Assembly (NCBI GenBank): GCA_017506865.1
Contig: JAFCMP010000223.1
Span: forward strand, 1,488,001-1,552,000
Reading direction: 5' to 3'
Length of the DNA: 64,000 bases
Source of the DNA: Tribonema minus
Taxonomy: Eukaryota > Sar > Xanthophyceae > Tribonematales > Tribonemataceae
The number at the start of each line of letters is the position of its first letter. The stretch's first letter is position 1. Below the pieces are notes generated by a model. That model made no database searches and was not told where the DNA came from. It was given only the letters and a program-made list of their open reading frames with translations. The position numbers and the translations under genes are program-made. This document shows positions 21,437 through 58,137 of this stretch, in pieces.

Positions 21437-21500
21437 TCACGCGTCAAAGTAGTACTTATAGGGGTCGTGCGTGTAGTACTTGGGGCGCTCGTCGAGGCGC
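21372..21500 (-). repeat. Tandem duplication of a gene's 3' end
   Basis: The last ~55 bases of the DUF6940-like coding sequence, including its stop, occur twice, about 65 bases apart (21,378 and 21,438). Shared words are CGTCAAAGTAGTACTTAT and GGGGTCGTGCGTGTAGTACT. The outer copy lies beyond the stop codon and is not translated. Confidence 0.85.
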
Positions 21501-35393: not shown

Positions 35394-38300
35394 ATGAACA
35401 AGGCACTGATGCAGCGCGCGTTGCAGAAGCGGACAGGACCACCGAAACCGGGAGGAGGGACAGGGGCCAAGCCCACCGCAGCAGCGGCGGTGACGGTTGC
35501 GCCTGCTGCAAAGGTCGTCGGGCCTCCGCCAGAGATGCAGAAGGACTTGGTAGCGGCGAAGGCGGCCAGCGATGCAGGGGACCATGCTGCAGCAGCTTCA
35601 GCTTATCAAAGCATAGTCAAGGTGCGCAGCCCATGTCCTGACTGAGGTCATGTGCCCGTGCAGAATTCTGTGGACTAAGGCTGGTCAACGCGTCACCATG
35701 GTGGTCGTCGCCTAAGCTAAATTTGGCTTGCCATGCAAGGCAGCTTTATGAAGCCAGAAGCATCAGCATTCATAGCGTCCGCTTGACTCAATGCATGTGA
35801 AGCTGCACCACGCGGCTCTGTCCTATGAAATTCCTCTTTTCAGGCCACCCGTCAGACCGTTTCAGCCCAATTCTGAAAAAAAGCTTGGCTCTGATGGTAT
35901 GCCTGTAGAGTCGGGATTAAGCAATAGTTTTGCTGTGATGAAACTCGTTGGCTTCTCACAGGCGCTGAGTTTCGTCGACTGCATACATTTTTCATATGTC
36001 TGCGTCGGCCGCACTGGAACTTCAGGCAGTGGTGCTGCTGCTTGCATGTGTTCATAGCTGTGCTTTTGATTATCGAAGTTGGTTGCGCTGCTTAACTTGC
36101 TAATGTTCTCACTCAACAGAACAACTATGGTTCAATTTGTTGATGCCTCAAATCATCGGGTATTCGAATGCTGTGTTTCGTACAATTATGAAAATGAATC
36201 AAAAGATTGCAGAGCTCTAGGTGACATGGGTTGGTTAGCCTCAAGTGCCTTTCAACAATAACCATGGTCGCTGTTGCTGCAGCAATTGGCCACGAGTCGA
36301 TATAATATTCAGCATGCTCGAGCATTGTGCGTGCCACTTTGTGAAATGAAATTGACTTCCTCTCGCCGAACATCATTCCTCTGGCGTTTGACGCTTACAG
36401 TAAAATCTTGTTTACAACAAATTTACAAGATGATTAACTCAATGCATCATTCATCCTAGCGCAGCACTCAAGCATGATATATGCCATGCTCTGCCGTGGT
36501 GAACTGATCAGCTTAAATACATTATTGGTGGAAGGCACCTGCGGCTAACCACCCGTTGTGACCTAAAGCTCGACCAACCTTTTGATTCATTTTCACATGC
36601 GGGATAGCATTGCAACGGACAAGGGCCATCGTTTGCTGTGTAGCGTCAAGTCATTTAATCTCTCAAGAATGCTGACGCGAACCCAGAAGCTTTCGCGCCT
36701 GTATTGCATGCAGGAAGGCTTTTGACTACTGTTACGTTTTTCAGACACGTTGTACTGTGCAGCATGAAGTCTGTGACTGTACACTCACTACACTGCAGCG
36801 TCTGTTCCTGTCATGTCAAAGGCTCTGCAATGATCAGAGCATTTCTTCCCACAACCCCACACCCTGCAACATGATTGATACAACAGCAGCTTTCCTGCGG
36901 AGCCTGCTCTCTGTAGTCTGCCACCATTCGATGCTTGACACACTGTCTGCATCCTCACATTGCCGCAACAATCTCAGACATACAAGGAGTCGGCTGCAAT
37001 GAAGGACCCCAAGGTGTCGGGCAATGTGCTGCTGCTGTACGGGAAGGCTGCGCTGGCGGCGGGGGACAGGGACGTAGCAGCTGCTCAGCTGGCTGCTGCC
37101 GGAGCGCTGCTGCCTGCCAACCCCCAGGTACATACATACCCCCAACTTGACATACCTACCCTTGTTACATACCTTGGACTGGAGCAGCAGTACCTTGCGG
37201 GGCAGGACTGTGCTGAGGACACTTCTCCTCTGGGGGGCGCGTTTTACGGTTTGATTGTCTGAAGGCAACTGAGTTGTTTTCAGTACAGCATGTATATTTG
37301 TCGACAAGCCCATTGAATAATCAAAATGAGCATACAAGTATTATGCGACACACGCTTCGAAGTATAGACTTTATGTAATGGGAGTGTACCAGTAGAGGCT
37401 TGATGTCCATGTTGACAAATTGCAGACCTGCTTCGCCTCTCTCAGTGATTATTTGTCGCAAAAACACATTTGGGGAGGTCATCTACTAGTGAAAAAACGG
37501 TTACGAACCGGTTACAGTTGCTGCAGAACTCTGACTCTGGTGCTGGTTCGCAGAGGTCTTGCTGCCACGCTTTCAACTTTTTACGTCTTTAAACCAACCG
37601 TGCACGTGTAGGTATACGTGCATACAACATGCCGCCGTTGCTAGCGCACACCTAGTTAGATGACCTCACACTCGAAAAGCAACGCTCAAACGTAGCCGTG
37701 TGCACAAATATCTCACAGGAAAGAGGGTGTGTGGTCTAGCACAATCAACGGTAAATGGTATGTTACGATTAGGGTTGCAATATGTGCTACAATCAGGGTT
37801 AGGAGTGGGCACAAGGTCTGTGGTGCTGTAGTTTGGCAACAGGCATTTCATTTGTGGCCAGCAGTGGTAACCACCGGTAAGGTTGAGATACTTGCAATGC
37901 ATCTACTCGCAGCTGGAAGTGGCGAATCAGCTCAGCACATGCTTTCAATGCGATCATACACACAGAGTGACACACTTATCATAGTGAACATCACGGGCAA
38001 TACATTGTGTCGACTGTCAGAGCACAGCGAGTGTAGCATCGCAGTGCTGCCCATGATGCAGGTCAGACAGGCACCATATCATACCTTACATCAACGCACT
38101 CCAGCAGCAGCCCGTGCACTTTCATTCAGTCAATCATTATCGTGTATAATTGGACTGTGCGCTTGATGCACCTGATTTCGGGTTCCAGGTCATATTTTTT
38201 ATGTGTAGAAGTATGTAGAAGTATGCACTACTCCGGAGTAGTGTCTCAGTTGTTGAACAAGACTGTTGACAACGCTATCATTTTTCAACTGTGCCAATCA

Positions 38301-41300
38301 CAAACTTCAACAGGTGTGGCGGTCGCTTGTGGAGTGCCACGAGGGGACTGGCAACCTGGGCGCGCTGCAGGGGGCCCTTGCGCGTTGCGTGGAAGTAGCG
38401 GAGTCTAAGGGCAACTTCTCACGCTCCAGGCCTCTGCGCCTGCGGCTGGCGGAGGTGCAGGAGGACCTGGGTGACAAGGGAGGTCAGTGTCCGTTACAAA
38501 TGTAACCGTAGAACGGTATCTTTATTTGTTGACATTGACGAGTCAAAGTTATCAGAACAACGGAGTCCAAGGGCACTCTAGGCCTCTGCGCCTGCGGCTC
38601 GCTGAGGTGCATAAGGACACAGGAGGTCAGTGTCAAATACATCACTTACAAATGCAACTCTCAGGCAGAACTACCAATTCTGAACGTGTCTGTCAGTTTA
38701 GAGGACAGAGTCAAGCATGCTGTCCGTGGACCTGACTGGTGGTCAGCGCTACTCACAGTGTAACTGTTGTGCAACTGCAACTGGTGCATAGACGTGGCAC
38801 GCTACTGTGAGGCAGCGCAATGTGTTGCACGCGCCTTCGAGGGAGGCCAGTGGCATATCAACACCGGGGGGGCAGTGCAACAATGTATTGAGGTGGGGGG
38901 TCAGCGTGTTGAAGGTCATGTTGAAGTGCATGCTGATTATTGTGTCTGTGGCTGATACGTCGCAGGCCCTAATGATGCAAGGAAGGCATATCCATTTGCT
39001 TCAGAGGCTTCGTGTTTCGTGTTTCACGCTTACCTGCCTATGGGCCATTTGTACGCTCGGGAGAGGGGCTACGATAGCACATGTCATGCTTGATGCACAG
39101 AGCACTGACGCGCAACGATGTTCATGTGGGCCTACACGCCATACACACATTGACGGTCTCGTGTCATCGGTGAATGCATCAACTCACGTGATTGCTCACT
39201 GTATGGCCGCGCGCAGGCGCGCTGGCCACCTTTCAGGCCTACATCGGAAGGGAAAGAGCTTGTCATAAACCACAGACGGTCTCATTCATTGGTGAATTTG
39301 TCGTTTCACGCGATCGTTCGTTGCACCACGGCCCGCAGTCTCGCTCGCCACCCTCAAGGCCTTTGTCACCAACGGCAAGGCCATAGATTCATCGGTGAAT
39401 TCATCAATTCACATGATCCCCCCCCCCCCCCCTGCGCAGGCGCGCTGGCCACCCTCAAGGCCTTTGTCACCAATGGCAAGGCCATCAACGCCCCCGCAGA
39501 GGACGGCGCCCCTAGCGGCGCTGACGACGAGCTTAACGAGCTCATGCGGCTGCGATGCTCAGCGCTGACGCGCGGCCTCAGCGGAAAGGCGGTTTCGCTT
39601 CCGACAGGGCCCCCCTCCCCCCCCCGTGCCAGGGGGGTGAATGGGGGGGATGGGGGGGGGGAGAGAGGGCGGTCAGCGACGATGGAGGTCATGCCCGCGG
39701 TGAACGGGCGGCGCGCGCCGACGGCTGCCGCCGCTGCCGGTGAGTCACAGCTTGAAGTTAGTGTTGAAGTTAATGTAAAAGGACGATGAAGATTTTTGTC
39801 ATGCCTGCGGTGAACGGGTGGCGCGCGCCGACGGCTGCTGCCGCAGCCGGTGAGTCACGCCTTGAAGTAGGTGTTGAAGATGGACCTCACCTCCATATCT
39901 GCCTAACCCCCCCCCGCAGGCGGCGCGCGCGACGCCAGCCCCTCCAGCGTCCGCAGCGGCTCCACCAACGCGAGCACCATTTTGACTGCACTCCTCTCAC
40001 TGTATATACCTACATGCCCACTCACCTCCATACCTACCTTACCCCCCCCCCCCGGTAGGCGGCGCGCGCGATGCCAGCCCCTCCAGCGTCCGCAGCGGCT
40101 CCACCAACGCGAGCACCGTCTCGACGATCGCGCCGCGCGGCGACGGGGACCCCCCCGTGGCAGGTTGGATTCTGCTGGCAGCGGCGCAGCCTACGCAGAG
40201 CCTGGTGGAGCTGCGCGCGATGGGCGATAGCGAGCGCCTGGAGAGGCTGAGCACGCTGTGCCTGATGCTATCGGGGGAGGAGACGGGGGAGGGGCGCAGG
40301 CGCGCGGCGGTGGCCATCGCAGGTATGTAGTACTTCCAAGTTTGAAGTAGATGTTTGGTGTATTGTTTATGCAGCAAGTGTGTGTACAGAAATGGGGGAG
40401 GGGGGCAGGCGCGCGGCGGTGGCCATCGCAGGTAGTACTTCAAGTTTGAAGTAGGCGTTTTTTTGGTGTCTTGGTTATGCAGCGTGTGTGTGTACAGAAA
40501 TGGGGGACGGGGGCAGGCGCACGGCGGTGGCCATCGCAGGTAGCACTTCAAGTTTGAAGTAGGCTCAAGTGTCTAGAAACGCAGCGTGTGTGTGTTTCAG
40601 GGTTTCAGGGGTGGCATACATGTAGTACAGTGTACTTCCGATGGAAGTAGACTTTGTGTCTTGGGATACGCAGCGTGTGTAAACAGAGGCAGGGTTTCAG
40701 GCGTATCACACATGTAGTACAGTGGACTGGTGATGGACATCTCGTTGTGTACTCACGCGCAAATGAGCGCAGCGTTTCGATGCGATCGGCTGACGTTAGT
40801 ACAGGGCGCAGGCGCGACTCTGTGGCCATCGCAGGTCAACCATAACACGCAACTCACATCCTGTGTGTTATACACGGGAGCATGCATGCACACAGGCCAA
40901 TCGCAGCTAGGACTTGAGGTTTGAAGTCGGGTGTGTTGGTTGCATTTGCATACATGCAGCGCGTGCATGTATGCATCCACGCCATAGTGACAGTGAGAAA
41001 ACATGCCTGCAAGAAGCGTGAACGCTTGGAGAAAGCGCCCTCAAGAGTCGCGAACGACCGGCGTTGCTGTCTGCGGCTGCGCTGAGCTCACTGCATGCGG
41101 CCAGTGCACTTCTTCTGCTCGTTCGATGCAGCAGATGCAAGGAAGCCACGGCATTGTGGCATTGGACCATCAGGAACCGAGTGCTACGGCGCCTTTCACA
41201 GACCATATTGCCATTTTCGGCGGTAGTTTTGCTCGCAATGGCAAGGTCTACATGTGCGTCATGTGCGTCCACGAATGCAAGTGTGTGGTGTGACAGTACG

Positions 41301-44300
41301 CGGCTGCGGTGAGCTCACTGCATGCGGCCAGAGCACTTCTTATACTCGTTAGATGCAGCAGATGCAAGGAAGCAGCAGATGCAAGGAAGCCACGGCATTG
41401 TGGCATTGGACCATCAGGAACCGAGTGCTGCGGCGCCTTCACAGACCATATTGCCCATTTTCGGCGGTAGTTTTGCTCGCAATGGCAAGGTCTACATGTG
41501 CGTCCACGATGCAATTGTGTTGAAGGGAAAGCCTATATTTAACTTGCAACTGGTGTGACCCTGAGGCAAATGCTCAGCGCCACGTATATACAAAGTATGT
41601 CCCTCTCTTACCCCCAACACCTATGTTATACACCCCCTACGGGCTACCTAGCCGCCATCAACCCTGATATCTACTCTTCATCAACCCTAATACGTACCCT
41701 ACCCCAACCCCCCCCCTAACGCCCCCGCGCAGAGGCCATCGCCGCGTCCTCCGCCGAGGCCCCCTGGGTCGAGGCGCAGCTCGCGGGCTTCCTGGCGGAC
41801 GCCTCCGCCCCCACCGCTCGCGAGGGCGCGCTCCTTGCCGTTCAGGCGCAGTCGCAGCTGGCGCGCCACGCCGCAGAGCCGTTTCTCGCGGCGCTGCTGC
41901 CGGCGACGCTGGCGGCGCACGCAGACGCCGCGCCGGCGGTGCGGCACGCGGCGGTGGACGCGGGGCAGGCGCTCGTGCGCGCGCTGAGCCCGCACGCGCT
42001 GCGCCTCGCGCTGCCGAGCGTGCTCGAGGGCATGGACTCGCGCGAGTGGCGCATTAAGGTACGTAGGTATGGTGTTGATGTGGGTAGCCTACATACCCTG
42101 TGCGCGCGCGCTGCGCGCCTCGCGCTGCCGCACGTGCTCGAGGGCATGGACTCGCGCGAGTGGCGCATCAAGGTATGTAGGTAGCTATGGTGTTGATGTA
42201 TGTAGTTCGCCCACTGGAGATGGTGGCAGCGCTCACCGTCTGATTGTGATCATGGCAGGTTCTAGGCTTGATTGTGAACGTGTCCACGCACGTATCGACG
42301 CTGTGGGTGCAGGTTTGCTCTCTGGAGATGGTGGCAGCGCTGGCCTTCAAGTTAGGGTTACTAGTAGAGTCATATTTGCAGTTACTAAGGGTTCAGGTTT
42401 TGATCAACACCTCATGATTCCATGCGCCCGCATTGACAATCTCGCTGCAGGTCGGCTCCTTGGAGATGGTGGCAGCGCTCGCCAGGACGGCGCCCGTGCA
42501 GCTCGCTGCCGCGCTGCCCGAGATCGTCCCGGTGGTGTCGCAGCAGGTGAGCACTGCGCCACTTTGAAGTTGCACTTGCAGTTGCATCGACGACGGTTGC
42601 GCTCGCCACACCGCTCAGCAACCGCTTGGCATTGTAACTGTCGGCGTCGTGGCAGGTGATTGCCGCAGTCACACTTGTACCTTGAGCACATTGATGGCTG
42701 TCATGTGGATTTTATTACGATGCAACGCCACACTGGTCACCACAAGGTGTAGGCCGCCTCCAACTGGAATACTGCAGGAGTATACTTCAGAAGGATCGCC
42801 TACAATTCTCGTACTAATGCTGCTGTTAATGGCAACTCTCGTTCTCCAACGCCAAGCTCAGTGCCTTGTTGAGTAAGAATTTATTCGCATTAACTTTTCG
42901 ACTCCGACTCCGCTGCAGGTCTGGGGCACACACCGCCAGGTGCAGGCCGCCTCCAACCCTACACCTGAATTTTAAAATAATTAATCAGTTTTTCTGTTAA
43001 CCGTGGTGGATATCACTACACACTGCTTTGCGCTCGCGCCGCCGCTGCAAGTGCAGGCCACGCACCGCCAGGTGCAGGCTCATCAGTACTAGTGACAAAG
43101 CTCAGCGCTTTATCCAGCAACCACTGGTTCATGTTCACTTATCGCCTACGCTGCCTCGTCGTCGCCCGCAGGTCTGGGACACGCACCGCCAGGTGCAGGC
43201 GGCCTCCAAGCACGCGCTGCTCGCGGCGTGCGCGTGCATCGCCAATCCCGACATCGAGCCCCTCGTGGACCGCCTCGTCTCGGTCATTGCGCACCCGGAG
43301 GAGACGCTCGCAACGCTAGACGCGCTCATGGCGACGACTTTTGTGACTCGCGTCGACGGCGCCACGCTGAGCGTCATCGCGCCGCTGCTGGGCAAGTGCC
43401 TGCGCGAGCGCGCGGCGGCGATGCGGCGCAAGGCGGCGCGCGTCATCTCCAACATGTGCAAGCTCGTCATGGACCCCGTGGACGTGGCGCCGTTCGTGCC
43501 ACTGCTGCTGCCCGCGCTGCAGAAGGTGCGTGCTCAAGTTCAACAATCAAAGGTTGTAACGTTAACTTGAACATGTCATGGACCCTGTGGACGAGGCGCC
43601 GTTCGTGCTGCTGCTGCTGCCCGCGCTGCAGAAGGTGCGTGCTCCAGTTCAACAATTAAAGAATGTAGCATCACCTTCATGACTTTCGATGTGTTCGTGC
43701 CGCTGCTGCCCGCGCTGCAGAAGGTGCGTTCGGACGGGGCGCGTGCTAAGTTCAACAATCCTGTAGTGGCAACTTCAAATATGCGGACGTGGCGCCGTTC
43801 GTGCTGTTGCTGCAACCCATCACGTCAATCATTCAACGCCAACGTCGCAGAACAGAGTCGGGCTCCGAGTTTCCTTCTGCACGACGCCAGCGCTCAACCC
43901 CCCCCCCACCCTGCCAATTCCAGGCAAAGTATAATCATGTCACAGAGCACTCATGCCGCCACTTCAACTGACACCCTGCCCCCCTTCGCTCCCAATGCAC
44001 CCCCCCTCTCTGCCAGGTCGAGCCAGAGACCTCCAACCCCGAAGTCACCGCCCGTCGCGCAGGAGGCCCTTGACACGCTCGTGCGCGCGCTCGGCAGCAA
44101 AGTAGAATCATGGCATAGAGTACGATGCCACCACATCAACTGACTCCCCCCCCCCCCCCCCCCCCCCCCAACCCCCCTTTCCCTTATCTGCCCCCCCTCC
44201 CTGCCAGGTCGTAGCGGAGACCTCCAACCCCGAAGTCACGGCTGTCGCGCAGGAGGCCCTCGACACGCTCGCGCGCGCGCTCGGCAGCAACGTAGAATCA

Positions 44301-47300
44301 TGTCATAGAGTACAATGCCACCACTTCAACTGACACCCTGCCGCCCTTTTTCGCCCCATGCCCCCCCCCCCTCTCTCTGCCAGGTGGTGGCAGAGACCTC
44401 CGACCCCGAGGTCACGGCCGTCGCGCAGGAGGCCCTCGACACGCTGGTGCGCGCGCTAGGCGGCGGCGCCGCTGCCGCCAAGGCACGCGGCGGCGCCGCC
44501 CCCGGGCCTTCCCCCGAGGAGGTCACCGCGATGCGCGCAGAGATGCTGGGGCACCTGCGCAGGGCTGTCATGGCGCACATGGCACCGGCAGCGGCGGTGG
44601 CGACAGCCGTTTTGTCAGAAGATGGTGAAGATGATGAGGAGGGGAGCGAGGAGGGGGAAGGGGGGGTGGTGGCGGCGAAGTCGCCCATGACGGACGCGGC
44701 GCTGGGCTACGTGGCGGCGCTCTGCACGTCACTGGTGCTGTACGGGCGCGGCGAGCAGGTCAGGCTCAGGAATAGGGTTAGGCTTACGGCGCAGGGTTAG
44801 GGTTTAGGTTTAGGTTTAGGGATAGGGGTTAGGGGTAGGGTTAGGTGCGCGCATGTGTCGTTGTCGTAACGCGCCTGTGCGAATGTAGGGTTAGGGTCGG
44901 TGCCTCTGCTAACCCGACGTGCATGCTGCAATTTGGGTACAGATGAGGGTCAGGCTTAGGGGTCAGGGTACAAATGGGCGTCTGACCGCTGCATGCTGAT
45001 TGCGCAGGTGCTGCTGCTGGTGCTGGCACCCAACTGCAATCACAAGTCCACCTGCAATCACTGCACGCTCTACGAGAGCAACAAGCACGCGTTGCTGCTG
45101 CGCACCTGCGATCGCAGCCTGCCGTACAACTCCGATGCGTTGCCGATTGCTGATGCTCAACCACAATACCCCCACCCACCCTGCATGGCAGTGCCGGCCC
45201 AGCAATTAACTCGCGCTGACGATGCCCATGCTCTGCCGCAATGCCCAGGGCCCCACGGAAGTAAGCGCGTGGCGCTCGGCAGTAATGCCGTACCTGCTGG
45301 CGGCGGGCGCTACGCAGGAGGCTGCGGACGCGGCGTATGCAGCATTTTACGACGCCGCCGCAGGTGCGTCACCCTCGACTTGAAGTATAACTTTATTGTT
45401 TTCAGGATTGAAGTTGAATAAAGTGCTCGCCAGCAGGGAACTTGGTGTGTACTCAATGTGTACTCAATGTGTACTCGGTGCGCCCCCTCTGTGGTGCTAC
45501 TACTTTACGCCACACTCAGCATGCGTGCTCGCCAACGATGGCGACAGCGGCTACGCCGATTTTTCTGCAGCACACGCTCATTGTGTCCTCCATGTGTACC
45601 CCATGCGTAGGCAAGTGGCTCACGACGGCAAGGCGGCATTGCTGACCTGTGTTCGCAAAACAGAAACAAGCATCCGCAACAGCACGCATGCTGCGCTTAT
45701 CACGCACTTTTGAAGCAATGGTGTACCAGATGTGAACTCCACATGTATTCTGTGTGTACCCAGTTCGCGACGGACGACGGCGACGCCGCTGCCGCCACCT
45801 CCAAAACGTACACACAAGTGCCCGTGGTAGCAGCCTCTGTATTCATATCATTGTGTGCTGCGAGTCACTCTGTATGTGCCCGTGATATACATAGCAGCCT
45901 CTGTACTCATCCTTTGAACTACCTAATCGTGTACACTATTTGAACTATGTATGTACTACGTGCGAACCCCCAGGCGCGCTCGCGGCGGACGACGGCGACG
46001 GCGACGCGGCCGACCTCTGCAACATTGAGTTCTCGCTCGCGTACGGCGGCAAGATCCTGCTGCACAACACGCGCTTGCGCCTGCGCGCGGGCCACCGCTA
46101 CGGCCTCATCGGCGCCAACGGCGCGGGCAAGACGACGCTCATGCGCAACATCGCCAACGGCAACATCGACGGCCTCCCCGACGACCTCCGCACCGTGTAC
46201 GTCGAGCACGACATCGTGGGGTCGGACGCAGACACCCCGGTCGCGGAGTTCGTCGCGTCGGTGCTCCCCGCCAGCGACGACGCCGACGCAACGGCGCGGC
46301 GCGCGCGCATCGTGGCGACGCTCAGCGGCGTGGGGTTCACGGACGCGATGCTCGCGGCGCCCGTGTCATCGCTCAGCGGGGGGTGGAAGATGAAGCTCGC
46401 GCTCGCGCGCGCCATGCTCATGAACGCCAACGTCCTGCTGCTGGACGAACCGACCAATCACCTCGACACGACCGCCGTCGCGTGGCTCACGCGCTACCTC
46501 GCCTCGCTGAGCGACGTCACGGTGCTCGTCGTCTCGCACGACACGGCGTTCCTCGACGACGTCGTGACGGACATCCTGCACTACGAGTCGCAGAAGCTCG
46601 TGCCGTACCACGGCAACCTCACGCACTTTGTGCGCCTGCGCCCCGAGGCGAAGTCGTACTACGAACTGGACGCGGCGACGCTCCGCTTCAAGTTCCCCGA
46701 CCCCGGTCCGCTGGACGGCATCAACTCCACCACCAAGTCCATCCTCACCATGAACAACGCCACGTACACGTACCCCGGCGCGGACAAGCCGACGCTCGCG
46801 GAGGCCAGGTATGTATCATAAGCGCGCGTACATACCTACCTTTGTGTACCTATACATACCCCGGGGCGGACAAGCCGACGCTTGCGGAGGGCCAGGGTAT
46901 GCATGTAGGTAACTGCAAAGTGTGAGCGTACCAGGAACCTACCCTGTGCGCTCGCCATGATGCTAGGTGCCGTTCGCCCCCCCCTCCCTCTCGACATTGT
47001 GTACGTGTGCTCCCCAGACGTGCTAGCTTACATTTGGGAGGCTGCGTAACTGAGGTTCTGCTGTTTCGCCAGATAGCATCGCACTCCCGGCAAACAAATG
47101 GAGAGTCGGGGAGGGAGGTACTATCCCGCAGTGACCAACGAGTGCTGATGTACAACTCGCACAGTTGAATAGGGTTCTCAGTAGCCTTCAACCGGACGGG
47201 CACAAGTATCACACGCTTGCGGGTCTGCATCGCTTGCAACTTTGAGTCACGCACATTTTTGAGCCGCTCACAAGTCCGACTCGCCCATGACTCTGTATCG

Positions 47301-50300
47301 CCTAGGCCATCCACTGGACGGCTCTGCGGCATCTGCGCATGCTCACCACACCTACAGAAACGGCCATGAGAGCTGTCATCGCGCTGAGCCCACGCTTAAG
47401 TTGAACTTGCAGCTGTATCAGCGCACGCAACCTAATTCAATTTGCAACTTCTTCTGCCACGTTGCTCCGCGCGCGCAGCCTGAAGCTGTGCCTCGCGTCG
47501 CGCGTGGCCGTCACGGGCGTCAACGGCGCGGGCAAGACGACTCTGATTCGACTCGTCGTGCGCGAGTCGGAGCCCGACTCGGGCGAGATCTGGGCACACC
47601 ACAACCTGCGCATCGCCTATGTTGCGCAGCACTCGTTCCACCACGTGGAGCAGCATTTGTCCAAGAGCCCGGTGCAGTATATGCAGTGGCGGTACGGCGC
47701 TGGCGACGGCACGGACCGGGAGGCGAGTGCCAACAACATGGCCATGAAGCTGACCGCGGAGGAGGAGGAGAGACTCGCCAAGGTGAGTCATTGAGTCTGG
47801 ATGGAGTGAGCGAGTAGGACTCACTGAGGCACTGAGCCGTGTGGGGAGGCAGCAATCACTGGTCGCCATGCGAGTCGATGTGTAATTGCCTGCTGTTGCG
47901 AATGAGTCACTTGGTATCACTCACTTGCCCCACGAGTCATTGTGTGTTTGCAATCGAGTCACTTGATCTTACCCACTTGCCCTGAACGCACACCCCTGAA
48001 CGCACAAGTCGCTTTAAAGTGCATCCTCGGGTTACGCAAGATAGGGCGCGAGGCGCACACACTGACGCAAGCAGCGGCCAGGCACTCAATGACTCACTCA
48101 CTCACTCACTCACTCACTCACTCACTCACTCACTCACTCACTCACTCCACCGACAGGTCGGCGCCGTGGAGCGCATCCTGGGGCGGCGCAAGACGGGGCG
48201 CACGCTCGAGTACGAGTGCTCATTCGTCGGCATGGGCGACGAGTACAACCGCTACATCACGCTCGAAAAGCTCGCCGACATGGGCTGCCAGAAGCTGGTG
48301 CAGCAGGCGGACGCGCGCGTCGCGGCGCAGGCTGCGGGGCTCGACGTGCGCCCCACGACGACGCGCGAGATACAGGCGCACCTCGACGACTTCGCGCTCG
48401 CGCCCGAGTTCAGCGTGCACGGCAAGATCGGCGGGCTGTCCGGCGGCCAGAAGGTGAGGGGTAGGGGTTGGGGTTAGCGCTGCGGTTTGGGTGCGCGCGC
48501 TTGAAGCTGTTGGTGAAGGCGCAGGCATGCAACTACAGTTTGCATGCACAACACTTTGCGCTCGCGCCTGAGTTCAGCGTGCACGGCAAGATCGACGGGC
48601 TGTCCGGCGGGCAGAAGGTGAGGGGTAGACCTAGGGCTAGGGTTTGGGGGTGCGCGCGTTAGGGTTCGCAGGCATGCAATCACAGATTTCTAGCGCCGTG
48701 GTTTATTTGTTTGCGCTCGCGCTCCAAGTTCAGCATGCTTGGCAAGATTCGCGGGCTGTCTGGCGGCCAGAAGGTGAGGATTGCGCTGGGAGTTTTGGGG
48801 TTCAGACGCGGCTTCACTTACATTGAAGCTTTTGAACACCTCGATCAGTTTTCAACACTTAGGCTTGTCCTGTTGATGTTGCAAGTGCGCCGCGCCACTA
48901 GTTTGGTGCCTTTTCGGGTGATGAAAGGCGAGGGGGCGTGCGTGTGAATGTTGATCACTCATGAACAATGGGACTGGTACACCATCTATCTGTTGTATGG
49001 TATGTATACATGGCACACCGCACCAGCAGTAGCAGCAGATGATGATGAGATCATGGCAGCACACCAATAAACAGGGGAGCTACCTGAACTAGCGACGCTG
49101 GCTTGACAAGCACTCAGCTTAGGGTTAGGGTTAGGGTTGCCGCGCTGCCCACGTCACCACACAATGCTGGTTGTGACAGTGCTCGTCAGGTTGCGCGTGC
49201 TTGGCGCTCCTCAGCCATTTATTCATGAATTCATGCGATGCTGCCCCGGCGAAGTCGGGATATTAGGTCGTGCGAGCAACTCAACATAGCAGCACCATTG
49301 TCTCATGAACACTGTAATGCACGCCGCGTTGCTCAGGTCAAGCTTGTGCTGGCGGCGGCGACGTGGAATAGACCCAACCTAATTCACTCAATAAACGCAT
49401 GAATCCACGCTTTACTTCCCCCCCAGGTCAAGCTAGTGCTGGCGGCAGCCATGTGGAACAGGCCCCACCTGCTCGTTCTCGACGAACCCACCAACTACTT
49501 GGACAGGGAGGCACTGGGCGCGTTGACGATTGGCATCAAGGAGTTTGGCGGTGGCGTCATTATGATATCGCACAATCAGGTACGTTTTGGTTTGGACACT
49601 CATGTTGTTGCTGCGTTGAGTAGAAGGGGGGGGGGGGGGGGGGGGGATCACAATTGACATCGAGGCGTTGTGCGGCGGCGCATTCATGACATTGCACAAT
49701 TGGCCCTCCTTGTCTACACAGCCTGTCCTGTCGCGCTGTGCGTTTTTTTCTGTGTTTACAATAAGGAAGGTATTTGCTTGCGCTCGGCCAAATGCCCTGG
49801 GCTTGTGCACCGAGCTCCAACGAGGAGCACAGAAATGCTCTGTCGCTGCCAGTTGCGCGTTGTGCTGCTTAGGCTCACCGGAGAGCACAGCGGTGCGTCA
49901 CCGCAGTCAGTTCTGTGTTGTACTTGAGCCACGCGCTGCCCACGGCGTCTTTCTGCTGGCGCTGCGTCCAGACATTCCTGATCCCCTCTACTGTCTTGCG
50001 AGAACCCTAGGCTTCGGGTCAGCGGAACCGGTGGTGAACGAACCAACATCATTCCATATGGCAATCCGCAAAACCTCATCCGTCCATCACATTATCCACA
50101 TCTACGTCTTTGCTTTCATGCGCTGACTTCAACACTGCACTTGGTGCGTCGCCGCTTGCGCTTTGCAGGAGTTCCTGAGCGCGATCTGCACAGAGACGTG
50201 GACGCTGGAGGCAGGGCGCCTCTACACCAAGGGCGAAGTGCGCGAGACGGCGCTGCGGTTCGCGCGGAAAAAGGTCAGTGCTCAAGCCTATGAAACTTCA

Positions 50301-51427
50301 AGCGTGAAAATTGCGCAGTATGTATGACTGCCGACAAGTGTCTGTGCGCGGGCCGGCAGAACTTCAAATGTTGAAGCTGCAGTGTGCGTGTAGAGCTATA
50401 GTCCCTACTGAAGTGCGCGAGACGGCGCTACGGTTTGCGCAGAAAACGGTCAGTGCTCAGGCCCATGAAACTCCAAGAGTGGAAATTGCGTTGTCCTTCA
50501 GCATGTATGTATGACTGCTGACAAGTGTCTGTGCGCAGGCTGATGGGAGCTCGAGTGTTGAAGCCGCAGTGTGCGTGTAGGTCTGGTGCGTCGATCGGAG
50601 AAACTTCAACTGTTGAAGTTGCATTGTGCGTGTAGGGCTGTAGTCCCCACGGCACTCACAATCAGGAGCGTAGTCACAGTGCAGCAAGAAGAAACAGAAT
50701 TATTGCTCGCACCAGGGCGTGTGCGGCGGCGGTGAGCAGGAGTCAAGGGGGGGTACAGTAGTGCGAGTAGGAATGCCCAGGAAGGTACGAGGCTCACCAG
50801 CATGTCACAGGGCCACGTTAGAATCAGCTCAGGCTTCGACGAGTGCACAAGACACACACATGCTTGTTTCCATATTTGCTGAAGTTTGTCATGTGTACTT
50901 CGCAGTATCATGTACACATTGGGCTCTGCACTCTACGCATATGACCTCAACTTGTGCCCTCGCATGCGTGTCCCCCCCTCTCCCTACACCCCCATCGTCC
51001 CCCCCGCCCCACCCCCTCTTTCCACCACCCTGTGTTCACACCTGCTCTAACCGGATAACAGGCGGGTAGGGGTACTTTTTCCTCGCATCATTGCTTCCCT
51101 ATGCTCAGTTGCCTTCCTTCCCAGCCGAAGACTGTCAATCTGCATGTAACTGCCTTCTGTAACCGCCCTCACACACCCCCCCCCCCCTCCACACACCCCC
51201 TGCAGGACGCGCTCGGCGACGAGCCCGAGGAGGAAGCGGCCAGCGCGGGCTGCACCAACAAGACGGTCTCCTACGACAACCTCATCAACCCCAAGTCCCT
51301 CAAGGCGCTGTCGAAGAAGGAAGTGCGCAAGCTTGCCAAGCTCGCGGAGAAGGCAGAGATACCGCTGCCAGAGTACGTCAGCAAGATCACACGCGCGAGC
51401 CCGGAGTGGAAGTGGCTGTCGGCCTAG
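35394..51427 (+). CDS. Translation elongation factor 3-like ABC-F ATPase
   Basis: Sixteen exons keep frame throughout: 35394-35621, 36978-37127, 38314-38482, 39440-39739, 40059-40322, 41733-42058, 42451-42546, 43172-43525, 44384-44758, 45249-45363, 45974-46808, 47479-47782, 48157-48453, 49427-49579, 50169-50273 and 51206-51427 (4,293 bases, 1,430 residues). Residues ~1-180 form TPR-like helices and ~185-280 a disordered linker; yeast eEF3 (~1,044 residues) lacks this extension. HEAT repeats span ~310-630 ([32 protein letters not shown]). ABC1 has Walker [10 protein letters not shown], signature LSGGW and Walker [15 protein letters not shown]2 has GVNGAGKTT, a chromodomain-like insert ([20 protein letters not shown]), LSGGQ and [11 protein letters not shown]. 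eEF3 drives tRNA release from the ribosomal E site in fungi and some algae. Introns carry many junction echoes, listed separately. Confidence 0.92.
36180..36605. mobile_element. Foldback/MITE-like element
   Basis: Two ~90-base arms in inverted orientation bound the element. The left arm (about 36,185-36,275) reads AAAATGAATCAAAAG, GAGCTCTAGGTGACA, GGTTGGTTAGCC, AGTGCCTTT. The right arm (about 36,515-36,600) carries the reverse complement with GTTAGCCGCAGGTGCCTTCC-like sequence. The ~240-base centre has no open frame. A partial copy lies at 200-330. It sits in intron 1 of the elongation factor gene. Clear target-site duplications were not seen. Best read as a non-autonomous DNA element. Confidence 0.65.
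38561..38655 (+). repeat. Junction echo, end of elongation factor exon 3
   Basis: It repeats the exon end and donor: GGAGTC.AAGGGCA, AGGCCTCTGCGCCTGCGGCT, GAGGTGCA, GGAGGTCAGTGTC and TTACAAATG, about 100 bases downstream of the original. An AGGT donor context is retained. Confidence 0.9.
39150..39500 (+). repeat. Three tandem copies of an acceptor junction (exon 4)
   Basis: Units of ~110 bases each carry GGTGAATT.ATCAA-TCACG.GAT, then GCGCAG or CGCAG, then CGCTGGCCACC.T.AGGCCT. The third copy (39,432 on) is the functional acceptor of exon 4. The earlier two are decayed but keep the AG. Confidence 0.85.
39785..39875 (+). repeat. Junction echo, end of exon 4
   Basis: A near-perfect copy of GTCATGCC.GCGGTGAACGGG, TGGCGCGCGCCGACGGCTGC and the donor CCGGTGAGTCAC, ~110 bases after the original at 39,688-39,750. 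Confidence 0.9.
39905..39985 (+). repeat. Junction echo, start of exon 5
   Basis: CCCCGCAGGCGGCGCGCGCG, GCCAGCCCCTCCAGCGTCCG and CTCCACCAACGCGAGCACC precede the functional copy at 40,059 by 140 bases, with nearly full identity over ~60 exon bases. The upstream copy ends abruptly where the coding sequence continues downstream. Confidence 0.9.
40390..40840 (+). repeat. Serial junction echoes, end of exon 5
   Basis: Copies at about 40,392 and 40,497, with decayed traces near 40,600 and 40,806, carry GGCAGGCGC.CGGCGGTGGC, CATCGCAGGTA and then ACTTCAAGTTTGAAGTAG, as after the true donor at 40,322/40,323. Spacing is ~105 bases. Confidence 0.9.
41071..41506 (+). repeat. Intronic tandem duplication, ~225-base offset
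   Basis: Two ~200-base copies share GAGCTCACTGCATGCGGCCA, GCAGCAGATGCAAGGAAGCC, CATTGTGGCATTGGACCATC and TTCGGCGGTAGTTTTGCTCG. They are about 95 per cent identical; copy 2 contains an extra GCAGATGCAAGGAA. The duplication lies inside intron 5, away from splice sites. Confidence 0.95.
42080..42200 (+). repeat. Junction echo, end of exon 6
   Basis: CGCCTCGCGCTGCCG.ACGTG, CTCGAGGGCATGGACTCGCG and CGAGTGGCGCAT.AAGGTA, followed by TATGGTGTTGATGT, repeat the original at 41,998-42,085 with only a few changes. The copied donor is intact. Confidence 0.92.
42205..42350 (+). repeat. Junction echoes, start of exon 7
   Basis: TGGAGATGGTGGCAGCGCT, the start of exon 7 (42,451 on), also occurs near 42,216 and 42,320. 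The second copy is preceded by a TGCAG|GTTTGCTC acceptor. Confidence 0.85.
42740..43090 (+). repeat. Junction echoes, start of exon 8
   Basis: Partial copies of CAGGTCTGGGACACGCACCG and CCAGGTGCAGGCGGCCTCCA occur near 42,743, 42,917 and 43,050, before the functional copy at 43,172. The 42,917 copy keeps a CTGCAG acceptor. Confidence 0.85.
43572..43830 (+). repeat. Junction echoes, end of exon 8
   Basis: Copies near 43,574, 43,690 and 43,788 carry GGCGCCGTTCGTGCTGCTGC, CCCGCGCTGCAGAAGGTGCG and TCAAGTTCAACAAT-like sequence, as around the donor at 43,525/43,526. The nearest copy keeps the reading frame and donor. Confidence 0.9.
44013..44325 (+). repeat. Two full echoes of the start of exon 9
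   Basis: Units of ~190 bases carry CTGCCAGGTCG, GAGACCTCCAACCCCGAAGT, GCGCAGGAGGCCCTCGACAC and GCGCGCGCTCGGCAGCAA, then TAGAATCATG and CACTTCAACTGACACC. They are copies 1 (44,016) and 2 (44,207); the functional exon 9 at 44,384 is the third. The first has lost the frame. Confidence 0.93.
44145..44169 (+). repeat. C25 homopolymer
   Basis: An uninterrupted run of 25 C lies in the intron, 35-45 bases before an echo acceptor. Run length may vary between individuals or assemblies. Confidence 0.85.
44760..44960 (+). repeat. Degenerate TTAGGG/TTTAGG tract
   Basis: The intron start after exon 9 runs AGGGTTAGGGTTTAGG, TTTAGGTTTAGGGATAG and GGGTTAGGGGTAGGGTTAGG, with more words near 44,886 and 44,945. 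It is a decayed interstitial telomere-like array. Confidence 0.8.
45755..45805 (+). repeat. Junction echo, start of exon 11
   Basis: CCCAGTTCGCGACGGACGAC and GGCGACGCCGCTGCCGCC resemble the functional CCCAGGCGCGCTCGCGGCGG, ACGACGGCGACGGCGACGCG at 45,968-46,005. Confidence 0.65.
46846..46925 (+). repeat. Junction echo, end of exon 11
   Basis: TACATACCCCGGGGCGGACA, AGCCGACGCTTGCGGAGG and CCAGGGTATGCATG repeat the original TACGTACCCCGGCGCGGACA, AGCCGACGCTCGCGGAGG, CCAGGTATGTAT at 46,766-46,818. Confidence 0.9.
48018..48065 (+). repeat. Junction echo, start of exon 13
   Basis: GCATCCTCGGGTTACGCAAG and ATAGGGCGCGAGGCGCACAC are a decayed copy of GCATCCTGGGGCGGCGCAAG, ACGGGGCGCACGCTCGAG at 48,173-48,210. 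Confidence 0.65.
48088..48147 (+). repeat. (CTCA)n microsatellite serving as acceptor tract
   Basis: About fifteen tandem ACTC units end ten bases before the CCGACAG acceptor of exon 13. They replace the usual pyrimidine tract. Confidence 0.92.
48555..48785 (+). repeat. Two junction echoes, end of exon 13 (ABC signature)
   Basis: Copies at about 48,557-48,640 and 48,716-48,785 carry TTGCGCTCGCGC, GTTCAGC.TGC, GGCAAGAT and the LSGGQK-coding CTGTC.GGCGG.CAGAAG, followed by GTGAGG. Both keep the donor. The originals are at 48,389-48,460. Confidence 0.92.
49335..49390 (+). repeat. Junction echo, start of exon 14
   Basis: CAGGTCAAGCTTGTGCTGGC, GGCGGCGACGTGGAATAG and ACCC repeat CAGGTCAAGCTAGTGCTGGC, GGCAGCCATGTGGAACAG, GCCCC at 49,424 on. 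The acceptor dinucleotide is kept. Confidence 0.9.
49648..49705 (+). repeat. Junction echo, end of exon 14
   Basis: GACATCGAGGCGTTGTGCGG, CGGCGCATTCATGACATTGC and ACAATTGG align with GGCATCAAGGAGTTTGGCGG, TGGCGTCATTATGATATCGC, ACAATCAGG at 49,533-49,580. It follows a G21 run at 49,626-49,646. Confidence 0.7.
50385..50640 (+). repeat. Junction echoes, end of exon 15
   Basis: GAAGTGCGCGAGACGGCGCT, ACGGTTTGCGCAGAAAACGG and TCAGTGCTCAGGCCCATGAA (50,410-50,470) copy the original at 50,235-50,293. The intron part (GTATGTATGACTGC.GACAAG, TGTCTGTGCG, TGTTGAAGC.GCAGTGTGCG) also recurs two to three times. Confidence 0.9.
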
Positions 51428-53215: not shown

Positions 53216-54031
53216 TTATTGCTGGGTCTTGGCGGTGGCGTGCTTGAGGCAGCAGCAGGTGCCCATGGCCACGTTGGCGCACACTCCTTCTTGGAGGTAC
53301 GACCAGCAGTAGCCAGTGAGTCCCGCTGTGCCCAGGGGGGCCTTGAACCCGGGTATCACCTTCTCGAACTTGAGATGCTGTGGCGCGCTTTGAGCGGCGC
53401 CGTCTTCTTGCGGGTCCGCTGCCTCGACGTCCTCGTCATCTTGAATGTAGTCGCAGCAGAACCTCTGCGCGCACACGAGCACGCGCCTCTGCCCTCCCAG
53501 GTTGACAGGGAGAGCAGGCAGGTCGTGCCCTGTGCAGCGCCCCCGCAGAGTGGGCAGCCACCCCCTGCTGAACTTGGCGATGTTCATGCCGGCGCCGATG
53601 AACCAGCGCCCGGCATTGGGATCCCACCGCCCTCCCGCTGCCCTGCAGGCCTCGACCTCCTTCAGAGGCACGTTGAGATAGACTCTGCGCTTTGTGGCTG
53701 CCATGACTGATACGATGTCCTCCTCCGCATCCTGGCGGTGTTGCTGCTGCAGCCCAGGGCAGGGCACTGGCAGGATGGACGCTGGCGCCTCATGCCTGGC
53801 CTTGATATTGCGTTCCTGCTCGCCCTCTGCTGCTGCTGCTGCTGCTGCTGCCAGCACTGCCGCGGGCGAGGTGCTGCTCTGCGGGGCGCGCTGGCGCTTC
53901 CGTCCCAAGCCGCCCTCGTCACGCGGCACCTTGAGCTCGAACTCCTGCCTGGCCATGGTGGTAATGTTTGCTGCGCTTGCTGCTGCTGCTGCTGCTGATC
54001 GAGTAATGAAGATTGCTCCTGAGCCCATCAC
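53216..54031 (-). CDS. DUF5710 protein with C-terminal CCCH-like finger
   Basis: A single 271-codon frame. An alternative start is the internal MARQEFELK at about 53,958. After Ala-rich linkers and a basic GLGRKRQRA patch, residues ~112-158 form a DUF5710 domain: RRVYLNVPLKEVEACRAAGG, RWDPNAGRWFI and FSRGWLP. That family is a small YLNVP...RWD...WY domain often joined to nucleic-acid enzymes or toprim proteins. An acidic stretch (DDEDVEAADPQED) follows. The end (GYCWSYLQEGVCANV, then CCCLKH) resembles a CCCH zinc finger with unusual spacing (C-x8-C-x8-C-x3-H). Nucleic-acid binding is inferred. A heat-shock element lies 85 bases upstream of the start. Confidence 0.75.
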   Translation of the reverse strand: MMGSGAIFITRSAAAAAASAANITTMARQEFELKVPRDEGGLGRKRQRAPQSSTSPAAVLAAAAAAAAEGEQERNIKARHEAPASILPVPCPGLQQQHRQDAEEDIVSVMAATKRRVYLNVPLKEVEACRAAGGRWDPNAGRWFIGAGMNIAKFSRGWLPTLRGRCTGHDLPALPVNLGGQRRVLVCAQRFCCDYIQDDEDVEAADPQEDGAAQSAPQHLKFEKVIPGFKAPLGTAGLTGYCWSYLQEGVCANVAMGTCCCLKHATAKTQQ

Positions 54032-54640: not shown

Positions 54641-54837
54641 GTCGATGCAACGAGATGTGTTGCTTTGACAACGCCTGGAAGCACAGTTGCAGTGAGCAGT
54701 GAGATTATTTGGATGTTTCTAGAAAGAGTTGAGAGGGGAGACAGACAAAACAAAAGGTGCACACTAAGGATCACACAGCACAATATGATAGCACCCATGA
54801 ATGACCTAGCTAGGTGTTCTTCAGTTAGGTACTTTTT

Positions 54838-55560
54838 ATTAATTCTCGCTCAGGGCGCGAAAAAGCCCAGATGATTGGCATCTAGCTGTACGGAATCTAC
54901 TTGTCGTATGACAGTCTGAAAGTGTCGTAACGACAATCACTCAAATGCCGCCGCCGCCAAATGGCATATCGGGATCCTCCCCTACGTCCTCCTCCATGTG
55001 CCCCCCCCCCTGGATTCTGCCATGTGTGTCATGACACGGCCAGAGTACGCCATGTGGAGCGCTGCCGACAGAGCCGAGCGTAAGCGCGCCAGGGCGATGC
55101 CCTTAAGAGCTTTAGGGCGCACTCCTCCGGGCACTGACATCCTGCTGCCATACTCCGTCGCCACAGCCTCCAGCAGCTTCCGCCCCTGCTCCCCTATGCT
55201 GCAAATGACCCTATTGCCAAAGTGGCAACTAGTAATTGTCACTGAAGGCGCGAAAAAGCCCTGCAGACGAATGTCAAGCTTGCTATCAAAATATGCATGT
55301 GTTATGTGACACCTTGCAAGTATCTGAATGCGCACTAACAATCACTTCTCCACATCGCCAAATGGCATTTCCCCCCCCACTACATTCTCCATCTGCCCAC
55401 TCCCTTTGGACTCCGCCATGGGTGCCATACAGGGAGCACTGCCAAGAGAGCTGAGCGAATGCGTGCCAGTGGTATGCCTTTTGAGCTAGAAAACTGGCTG
55501 CTCCGGGCACAAACATACATCCTGCTTGCATCTCCGCTGCGACTGTGACGGCCCCCACTA
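54838..55560 (+). repeat. Dispersed repeat R1, copies 4 and 5 in tandem
   Basis: Two copies about 395 bases apart share GGCGCGAAAAAGCCC, ATGTCAAGCTTGCTA-like, ACAATCACT and CGCCAAATGGCAT. Here the similarity continues another ~200 bases (CTCCATCTGCCC, GATTCTGCCATG-like, GCTGCCGACAGAGC-like, TCCGGGCAC, ACATCCTGCT), so the tandem unit is longer than the other R1 copies. Confidence 0.75.
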
Positions 55561-57190
55561 CCACGACTGGCTGCTGCCCATGCGCCTCGATGCATGCAAA
55601 AGTGTCAACTTTGTAGCAGCTCTGATCATAGTGACTACAATGCTGCCTGTGCGCCTCGATGCGTGCAAATAAATCGATCACCAAAAGTGTCAACTTTGTC
55701 GCAGCTCTGATAGTGACTAGAATAGTGGGTCTGTTTGACGGCCTCAGGCTCATGGTGGCGGCAGCACCCGCTCGGGGTCTGCTGTGCCGCCCGCGACGCC
55801 TGTAGCTCCAAACATGTGTTCTCCACCACTGTCCACCACTGGCATAAGCGGTAGCCAGCGCTTCACATCATTGTAGCGGTGACCAGACATCGGCAGGCAG
55901 CTCGATGTCCTACGATCCCGGGGCCCCCGGAGACGCCCTGGAGGGGATGGCATGTAGGTAGCCCTCGTCAACTACCCCTGTGTTAACTCAATGTGCTGCT
56001 GCAGGATGCGCTGCGTGGCCCGCTTGGCGCTGATAAAAACACATTGCGCCTCTGCTCCTCAAAAGAGCAACTAATATGGCGTTCGCCATTTAGTCCGGCA
56101 ACTTCAAAGAAAACTTCAACCGCAACTTGAAGTTCCTGAATGTGCGTTCAACGCTAGCTGAACAATCAACCGTAGCCGTTGCGGGATATATTGGCTCGTT
56201 CAGGAATGACTGCATGTGGCGCTGTGACCGTAATAGGGCAAGCACTCGCGCGCTGCGGTTGCCTGCGACAACTGCTGCAGGTCCGCACCAAGCCCGGTGG
56301 CGACGGCGTCCGCAAGCGCGCTCTGAGTCAAGCGCGCTGGCTACTCTGCAACGGTAGAGCAAATAAATTGAACAAAGCACATGCAGTTCCAGTCTCGCCA
56401 CCTGCTTGATGCTGCGGTGGTGATCAGACTCGCAGTGCTGCGGAGACGGCCCACTGGTATCGGAGGCTGCTGCACAGGCGACTGCTGCTGCAACAGCGGC
56501 AATAGGGCTGCTGGCAGCAGATGTTTCACTAGCAGCTTGTCACCCATCACCGAACGCAGGAATGTGCCAGTCACTGTGGCAGCTGTGGAAATCATCAATC
56601 ATGATGATGACATCTGCATGATGGGCACTCAGTCTGGCAGGCGCACCACTTCTAATGCCGCTGTGCCCTGCAGCATTGCTGAGGCGAAAAGTCCCAGCAC
56701 CTGCACCGAAGGCTGCCGCTGCTGCAGGCGCTGCAGCAGCGACTTTTGCCGCCTGCCGCCACTGCTGCTCGAGCTGCTGTTGCCGCTGGGCAGTTGCGGC
56801 GCCTGCCACATCGGTGGCTGCCGCTGCCGTTGCCGGTTGTAGTGATTTGGCACCCCAGCAGGGGACGGCAACACTGCTAAGTGTGCAAAAGCTTTTAAGC
56901 TCAGTAGCAAAGCCAGAATCACCACATGCGACCGCCGTCAGAATTTCATTGAACTGCTGCGGCGCCGCCTGCTGCCGCTGCCCCTATTGCACTGGCAGCT
57001 GCAACAGCTGCAGCAGCGTCTGCAGCAGCTGTGTTCCCCGCGCTCGCAACAGCTGCGGCAGCCGCAAATGCTGCTAGCACTGCCGGGGCGCTGCTGCGCT
57101 AGCCATGTCACACGGTGCTGCCGCTGCTGCTGCTGCCGGCGGCCCCCTGTCGTTGGGGCAGCTGCTGGCGCCGGCGGAGCAATAACCAAG
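54980..57190 (-). other. Possible Ala-rich protein gene, unresolved
   Basis: Several minus-strand stretches look protein-like: LLEAVATEYGSRMSVPG near 55,180, ALADAVATGLGADLQQLSQA near 56,300, and an Ala/Gln-rich coil (TAQRQQQLEQQWRQAAKVA) at 56,540-56,800. They could be exons of one gene, but I could not chain them by phase, and parts overlap the R1 repeats. No known family was recognised. Confidence 0.25.
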
Positions 57191-57452: not shown

Positions 57453-57488
<36 letters not shown>

Positions 57489-58137
57489 CGCTGCCGCGGG
57501 CGAGGTGCTGCTCTCCGGGGCGCGCTGGCGCTTCCGTCCCAAGCCGCCCTCGTCACGCGGCACCTTGAGCTCAAACTCCTGCCTGGCCATAGTGGTAATG
57601 TTTGCTGCGCTTGCTGCTGCTGCTGCTGATTGAGTAAGTAAAAGTGCTCCTGAGCCCATCACTCTGCACCTCAGCTCTGTGTGTGAGTGCCATTGCCCGC
57701 ACAGATCTCATTCTCTGAGCGTCTGTGAGCGTCGCTGACTAAAAAAACGAAGCTTCTGGAAGGGCTCGTCAGATATTTCAGGCGTTTGGAGGTTGAAGAA
57801 GGGTCTCGAACTTCAACCACGCAGACCGTGTGAAAGGGCAATTCCAGAAAAAAACGCTGACGTGTAACCTGACTCGACTCGACTCAAGACTTGACATCTG
57901 TTGATGGAACAACCATGAAGAACCATGCAAATAGAACAGAAGGCACGCAACTGCTGAGTACATCAGACGTCTTCAAACGGAAGGCACCTGGCCCTGCTAT
58001 ATTTGGGGCACGGCATGCATTGCTCCTTGCTGTCCGGCCAGGAAGTCCTACACTGCCCCAGTGCACGTCCTCCATTGCATGTGGTTGACCAACACATATG
58101 CCTCTCACAAGACTTGCACTGTGTAGCAGGACAATGC
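57368..58137 (-). repeat. Segmental duplication, copy B
   Basis: This is the partner of 53,784-54,497. It includes the duplicated 5' coding end, promoter and heat-shock element (57,748-57,762). The lower boundary cuts the gene before the DUF5710 domain. Confidence 0.95.
57405..57662 (-). pseudogene. Truncated duplicate of the DUF5710 gene
   Basis: An 85-codon frame begins MMGSGALLLTQSAAAA and continues ITTMARQEFELKVPRDEGGL as in the parent. It then diverges after the poly-Ala tract and stops before the DUF5710 domain and CCCH-like end. It keeps the promoter and so might be transcribed, but probably makes no functional protein. Confidence 0.8.

Follow-up and report, generated by a model that had tools for sequence, protein, structure and literature searches.

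Direct copies of exon-intron borders (echoes) lie in 12 of the 15 introns (3-8 and 10-15) of an eEF3-like gene, far beyond what chance would produce, within the 64,000-nt stretch of Tribonema minus DNA analysed here (the window). We propose, with a probability of roughly 0.7, that these introns grew longer because short stretches of DNA were locally duplicated in tandem, time and again.

We rebuilt the gene at 35394-51427 on the plus strand with 16 exons and 15 introns, GT-AG at all 15, and its outermost splice sites yield a single open frame of 1430 amino acids plus stop. The interval given in the original prediction begins at 38314, which is the start of exon 3; the ATG-bearing frame begins further upstream, at 35394. 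Exons were chosen on reading frame, phase and alignment to eEF3, those numbered 1-4 by phase and frame only:

35394-35621, plus strand, exon 1
36978-37127, plus strand, exon 2
38314-38482, plus strand, exon 3
39440-39739, plus strand, exon 4
40059-40322, plus strand, exon 5
41733-42058, plus strand, exon 6
42451-42546, plus strand, exon 7
43172-43525, plus strand, exon 8
44384-44758, plus strand, exon 9
45249-45363, plus strand, exon 10
45974-46808, plus strand, exon 11
47479-47782, plus strand, exon 12
48157-48453, plus strand, exon 13
49427-49579, plus strand, exon 14
50169-50273, plus strand, exon 15
51206-51427, plus strand, exon 16

The 1101-residue portion that begins inside exon 5 matches yeast eEF3 (lowest E=1.1e-208, over query residues 57-325 and 429-1021), and the HEAT region and two ABC domains align to fungal eEF3. 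The first exons encode a long N-terminal extension (35394-40200), in which exon 2 gave a weak TPR-like match under the family cut-off (PF13428, E=0.015) and a Pfam search of the stretch of exons 3-5 gave no match. GC content is 70% in exons 3-16, 55% in introns 3-15 and 47% in the echo-free introns 1-2. Scans of the whole window for tRNA and Rfam families gave no match.

For the edge test, a 50-nt exon-only probe from each exon edge was aligned to its own intron, and a score of at least 18 was counted as positive, a cut-off that was fixed after the scores had been seen (the weakest positive edge, the exon 13 acceptor, scores 18). An echo was found at 17 of the 30 edges, and introns 1, 2 and 9 contained none at this score with these probes. 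The predicted minimum of 12 introns with echoes agrees with the count obtained, and the edges named in the prediction were matched exactly, namely the donors of exons 3, 4, 5, 6, 8, 11, 13, 14 and 15 and the acceptors of exons 4, 5, 7, 8, 9, 11, 13 and 14. It also foresaw one to several copies per edge; we aligned 27 copies, with two or three at several edges, and left four further matches out of this alignment (three at scores of 14.5-15, and one at 19, 45523-45572). The predicted spacing of 60-190 nt proved slightly narrow, as the nearest copies lie at 87-215 nt and further copies at up to 512 nt. The echoes are as follows, with identical over aligned positions:

38576-38631, plus strand, exon 3 donor echo (exon end 38482), 45/50, floor p
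39334-39384, plus strand, exon 4 acceptor echo (exon start 39440), 42/46; a more decayed second copy at 39220-39270, 36/44
39782-39855, plus strand, exon 4 donor echo (exon end 39739), 57/62; its donor 9-mer equals that of the true site
39918-39986, plus strand, exon 5 acceptor echo (exon start 40059), 63/67; AG retained
40389-40434, 40497-40542 and 40779-40836, plus strand, exon 5 donor echoes (exon end 40322), 40/43, 38/43 and 45/53; a TRF array at 40285-40564 lies here
42098-42178, plus strand, exon 6 donor echo (exon end 42058), 68/74
42308-42345 and 42215-42237, plus strand, exon 7 acceptor echoes (exon start 42451), 28/33 and 22/23
42915-42967, 43047-43079 and 42730-42763, plus strand, exon 8 acceptor echoes (exon start 43172), 42/47, 25/29 and 27/31
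43560-43640, 43693-43729 and 43785-43813, plus strand, exon 8 donor echoes (exon end 43525), 67/75, 31/31 and 28/29; two donor 9-mers equal that of the true site
44202-44288 and 44011-44098, plus strand, exon 9 acceptor echoes (exon start 44384), 71/81 each
45765-45804, plus strand, exon 11 acceptor echo (exon start 45974), 35/40
46848-46900, plus strand, exon 11 donor echo (exon end 46808), 42/47
48018-48049, plus strand, weak exon 13 acceptor-side echo (exon start 48157), 25/32, score 18; starts 13 nt into the exon
48553-48623 and 48710-48779, plus strand, exon 13 donor echoes (exon end 48453), 61/65 and 55/63; donor 9-mer identical in both
49334-49380, plus strand, exon 14 acceptor echo (exon start 49427), 37/44; AG retained
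49634-49700, plus strand, decayed exon 14 donor echo (exon end 49579), 52/66; intron part undetectable, p=0.66
50410-50452, plus strand, exon 15 donor echo (exon end 50273), 35/39; intron part duplicated as well

The same probes aligned to foreign introns scored at least 18 in 1 of 420 trials and at least 17 in 3 of 420, and their reverse complements never reached 18 (0 of 30, maximum 15). Probes taken from the middles of 8 exons, 100 nt or more away from any edge, reached 18 in 2 of 220 overlapping tests; in a previous run of this control, 2 of 89 probes exceeded z=3.5. All 17 echo edges stood at the floor p of dinucleotide-shuffle tests (13 with 200 shuffles, 0.005; 4 with 400 shuffles, 0.0025). 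When 30-nt probes (score at least 15) were moved into the exon, positives fell from 15 of 30 edges at depths of both 0 and 10 nt to 13 of 30 at 20 nt, 7 of 30 at 30 nt, 6 of 26 at 40 nt, 2 of 24 at 50 nt, 1 of 24 at 60 nt and 0 of 18 at 70 nt, and there was no signal at greater depths (6 to 18 edges per depth).

Introners were rejected as a source of the copies, as none of the 28 pairs of the unmasked self-comparison of 38-52 kb links two different introns (homopolymer runs aside) and the exon-edge probes match foreign introns at the low rate given above; the short motif TTGAAG/CTTCAA is common to introns. This motif is strongly enriched across the window (52+42 occurrences, 13+14 expected; for example 40438-40451, 50362-50376 and 50604-50618), and TTGAAGTT/AACTTCAA occurs 24 times in the window where about one occurrence is expected, at places in nearby inverted pairs.

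The nearest copy at an edge carries 29-85 nt of exon together with adjoining intron. Among the 13 events at exons 5-16, the intronic part of the unit was repeated at the offset of the exon part in 10 (p<=0.01) and had no repeat at this level in the other three; the test took 13 of the 17 edges, the four events of exons 3-5 being left out. On our reading of the tandem scan, 8 of the 13 intron parts were also recovered blind at a score of at least 16. A boundary-crossing unit, made of an exon edge and its adjoining intron, is thus present at 9 donor and 8 acceptor edges, with the intron part seen in 10 of the 13 tested. Since the intron side is repeated at the offset of the exon part, the echoes are head-to-tail tandem duplications that straddle the junction; their copies are direct and adjacent with both parts at one offset, which places them in the class of tandem genomic duplications.

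Self-comparison of the masked whole window gave 99 direct against 3 inverted pairs (coding repeats included), which speaks against an inverted-repeat origin, and unmasked self-comparison of 38-52 kb gave 22 direct against 6 inverted pairs, 4 of the 6 being C/G runs. The tandem scan returned 188 raw hits at a score of at least 16, a number that includes coding repeats, where 3 shuffles averaged 1.0, and at this score their density was uneven, with zero hits in 35.0-38.4 kb and dense hits in 38.4-50.7 kb. Further local direct repeats lie beyond the eEF3-like gene, at 1625-2096, 3061-3618 and 54837-55610, and the start of a minus-strand open reading frame (MARQEFELKVPRDEGG...) is present twice, about 3.6 kb apart (53222-53956 and 57486-57590). 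Duplications also occur wholly within introns, the clearest case being:

41060-41504, plus strand, intron-only tandem duplication in intron 5, 219 columns, 86% identity

Under the reading that we prefer, a unit of exon edge, splice site and intron start or end would be repeated head to tail, presumably by slippage, template switching or break repair. The spliceosome would stay on the outermost sites, so that the mRNA would be unaltered and the surplus copy entirely intronic, and alleles that used an inner copy would mostly acquire a frameshift or stop and be lost. The surplus copy would then decay neutrally, the exon copy being kept by selection, and several rounds at one edge would leave between two and four copies when the original is counted.

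A possible but doubtful alternative is that junctions are preferred sites of duplication, made so by transcription or splicing, for example through RNA-DNA hybrids or sharp steps in base composition. The original prediction had described a process that repeatedly duplicates DNA across exon-intron boundaries; this is supported in part, in that repeated duplication across borders stands, and targeting of the borders as such is possible but improbable. A comparison of exon middles with exon ends, set beforehand as one that could refute the claim, favoured it (2 of 220 tests positive for middles, 17 of 30 for ends), yet it does not discriminate, because a unit of about 90-215 nt brings an exon middle into an intron only when it extends to that middle, and wholly exonic duplications would be removed by selection. 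The absence of exon-middle copies therefore follows from unit length whether placement is random or directed at junctions.

Duplications that lie within an intron or span a junction can persist as long as splicing stays on the outermost sites. We addressed placement through the surviving loci of exons 3-16, at which 17 junction-straddling duplications stand against 6 intron-only ones (score at least 16; near 40598, 41060, 45446, 45828, 47896 and 50344). These locus counts are our own judgement, in which several offsets at one place were merged, and two of the intron-only loci adjoin echo arrays. The random-placement null was run in 12 settings, combining present or shortened introns, inclusion or omission of introns 1-2, and three detectabilities of intron-only duplications, of which 0.62 corresponds to the 8 of 13 events recovered blind; unit and exon-part lengths were entered by hand (106 for the exon 4 acceptor, for which the scan value is 101). 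Random placement predicts a junction-straddling share of 23-38% at equal detectability and of 32-50% when intron-only duplications are 62% as detectable. At that detectability the boundary excess at exons 3-16 had P=0.00014 with present introns, and P=0.018 with introns from which the recognised duplications had been subtracted, both of which favour targeting of the junctions. When intron-only duplications were taken to be just 40% as detectable, in shortened introns, P rose to 0.145, which speaks against it, and over all 12 settings (17 of 23 loci) P ranged from <0.00001 to 0.145. In earlier runs P lay between <0.0001 and 0.45 when exons 5-16 were considered, with 13 boundary loci among a total of 15 to 19, and between <0.0001 and 0.062 for 17 of 23 loci.

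Two further observations fit duplication directed at junctions: the step in GC content between exons 3-16 and introns 3-15, with the echo-free introns 1-2 lower still, and the clustering of exon parts close to the junction, their mean rescaled position being 0.34 where uniform placement gives 0.5 (KS p=0.028). Selection against long exon copies gives equally short exon parts, so that either cause could account for them. The boundary excess in most settings, taken with these short exon parts, suggests that placement is perhaps not wholly random. We consider it possible, although on balance improbable, that in this lineage some genes undergo tandem duplication preferentially at their exon-intron junctions, as hot spots of a process linked to transcription or splicing, where introns grow from their own edges and the spliceosome reliably picks the outermost of near-identical sites.

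Two other genes of the window bear on this question. In the gene with a DUF6940 domain (last exon, Pfam PF22086, E=9.7e-34) a duplication spans the stop codon instead of a splice junction, with a unit of about 55 coding nt including the stop together with flank, and in the EF-hand gene one exon end has a weak echo:

21366-21494, minus strand, tandem duplication across the stop codon (stop at 21437) of the DUF6940 gene, its coding end copied into the 3' flank at an offset of about 71
32162-32211, EF-hand gene, weak echo of the exon end at 32444 within the adjoining intron, score 19

The duplication at the stop codon has the same geometry and outcome as the echoes although no splice site is involved, the first stop codon presumably preserving the protein, and this suggests a general process. 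Ten exact splice edges of the two genes gave this one weak echo, whereas the eEF3-like gene has echoes at 17 of 30 edges (Fisher p=0.013), a result that also argues against junctions as such being the target. In an earlier test of 21 rough edges, three of them from exons 1-2 of the eEF3-like gene, the DUF6940 stop edge stood at floor p, edges of the EF-hand gene, an LRR gene and exon 1 had p of 0.01-0.03, and the remainder were higher. The scarcity of echoes in other genes and their absence from 35.0-38.4 kb indicate that duplication activity is uneven. This counts against the general process that we favour, as a genome-wide process by itself does not explain why introns 1-2 are empty and the other genes have 1 echo in 10 edges. 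Other features of the window include a 17-bp minisatellite in an intron of the EF-hand gene (30813-30917, 6.2 copies, 96% matches), telomere-like TAACCC/TAGGGT arrays within introns (21988-22030 and 44773-44845) and two glutamine-rich frames (15428-16408 and 18068-19519), with RING-finger-like segments in the first of these and in the following frame, 19520-19930.

The echoes appear to decay as unused copies would be expected to. Across the 27 copies, differences from the exon fell at codon positions 1, 2 and 3 in 38/445, 36/447 and 76/446 cases (8.5, 8.1 and 17.0%; chi-square p=1e-5), which is the expectation for a copy that decays freely at about 8% per site and an exon under constraint at the first two codon positions but not at the third, the third-position excess being accounted for by the exon lineage alone. 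The alignments contain 29 gaps at a mean divergence from the exon of about 11%, and from this and the codon-position pattern we conclude that the echoes probably behave as dead DNA.

That the echoes are instead functional, as cassette exons, alternative exon ends or decoy sites that regulate splicing, is improbable. Their splice dinucleotides are intact in 19 of 20 covered echoes (12 of 12 GT and 7 of 8 AG; 7 of the 27 copies lack alignment cover), and the donor 9-mer is identical to that of the true site in 5 of the 12 donor echoes tested. By our own arithmetic this retention of GT and AG is not clearly above the roughly 84% expected under neutrality if 8% of sites have changed, and a local alignment is prone to leave out ends that differ. 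Of the two exon 9 acceptor copies, the nearer one includes 84 nt (28 codons) of open frame at 44208-44291 with AG and GT on either side, which, judged from sequence, could serve as a cassette exon, and the exon 6 donor echo (at 42173), the sole one of the 12 tested, would keep the frame open (+114 nt, 38 codons). Among the 20 of 27 copies tested, reading through to the echo site ran into a stop for 11 of the 12 donors and all 8 acceptors. The site taken was always the closest GT or AG, and at the exon 3 echo this may not be the one that matches. These stops, the 29 gaps and the codon-position pattern, which fits a decaying copy, all argue against function, and at 19 of the 20 echo sites the predicted reading frame also makes it unlikely that the stretch separating the copies is spliced out as a new intron.

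The original prediction had raised the caveat of assembly error. Uncollapsed haplotypes or stitched reads are a very improbable source of the echoes, given copies about 11% off the exon with 29 gaps and varied identities and offsets, and an outer frame that is open throughout. Birth of the introns from an AGGT segment of an exon that was duplicated in tandem (the Rogers model), although a mutation of the same kind, is hardly credible here, as it predicts similarity of the intron 3' end to the upstream exon end and of the intron 5' start to the downstream exon start, and these were found at 0 of 15 and 0 of 15 introns (highest score 11, threshold at least 18), a result that holds for traces still readable, since very old births may have decayed.

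Local tandem duplication, our preferred explanation, has known counterparts. The internal tandem duplications that affect FLT3 and other human genes in leukaemia are likewise short tandem units that may extend into an intron; unlike the echoes of the eEF3-like gene, they are somatic and selected for a change of the protein. The original prediction knew of no named description of introns built in this way, which proved correct in part. Tandem genomic duplication is a named and recognised route of intron gain in the portions of the literature considered here (PMC3443670, PMC2891723, PMC4974935), and a duplication crossing an intron-exon boundary has been published for a potato RdRp gene (Ma, Lan and Niu 2016, PMC4974935); a gene with most of its junctions duplicated into its introns was not found among the titles and abstract openings of open PMC papers, nor was such a density.

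As far as those portions go, the potato case, the closest known counterpart, resembles ours in that the unit comprises the 3' side of an intron and the 5' side of an exon and that parental splice signals were copied; it is a single event, in which a new intron was made with the help of a cryptic donor that the upstream copy of the exon supplied (PMC4974935), whereas the eEF3-like gene has 17 such edges, with copies inside existing introns and apparently no new intron. Intron gain of the Rogers type (Hellsten 2011, and Gao and Lynch 2009, via PMC4974935 and PMC3443670; a table in the latter holds 188 events) shares the mutation class, the duplicated splice sites and a protein that may stay unchanged, but the unit there, so far as these sources describe it, is exonic, and the cross-similarities it predicts are missing here (0 of 30). 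In Drosophila, Lehmann et al. (2010, PMC2891723) traced novel intron positions to tandem duplication or to sliding, and there, too, tandem duplication was followed by intronization of one copy; in the part of that report considered, the new positions (7 such introns) came from coding sequence with a proto-splice site, and arrays of existing junctions do not appear. What is new in the eEF3-like gene is the density of boundary-crossing duplications and the location of the surplus copies inside existing introns, the class of mutation being already known.

The lengthening of introns is usually attributed to transposons. In this gene, tandem duplications, mostly straddling junctions, would have contributed some 40% of the combined length of introns 3-15, or about 4.0 kb out of 9.2 kb, an estimate that counts the subtracted offsets as added length and includes one intron-only case. 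The gene would also offer a natural test of splice-site choice, in that 5 of the 12 donor echoes carry the true 9-mer, yet it is the outermost sites that are predicted to give the protein. If the process proves to be genome-wide, events of intron growth could be counted and dated directly.
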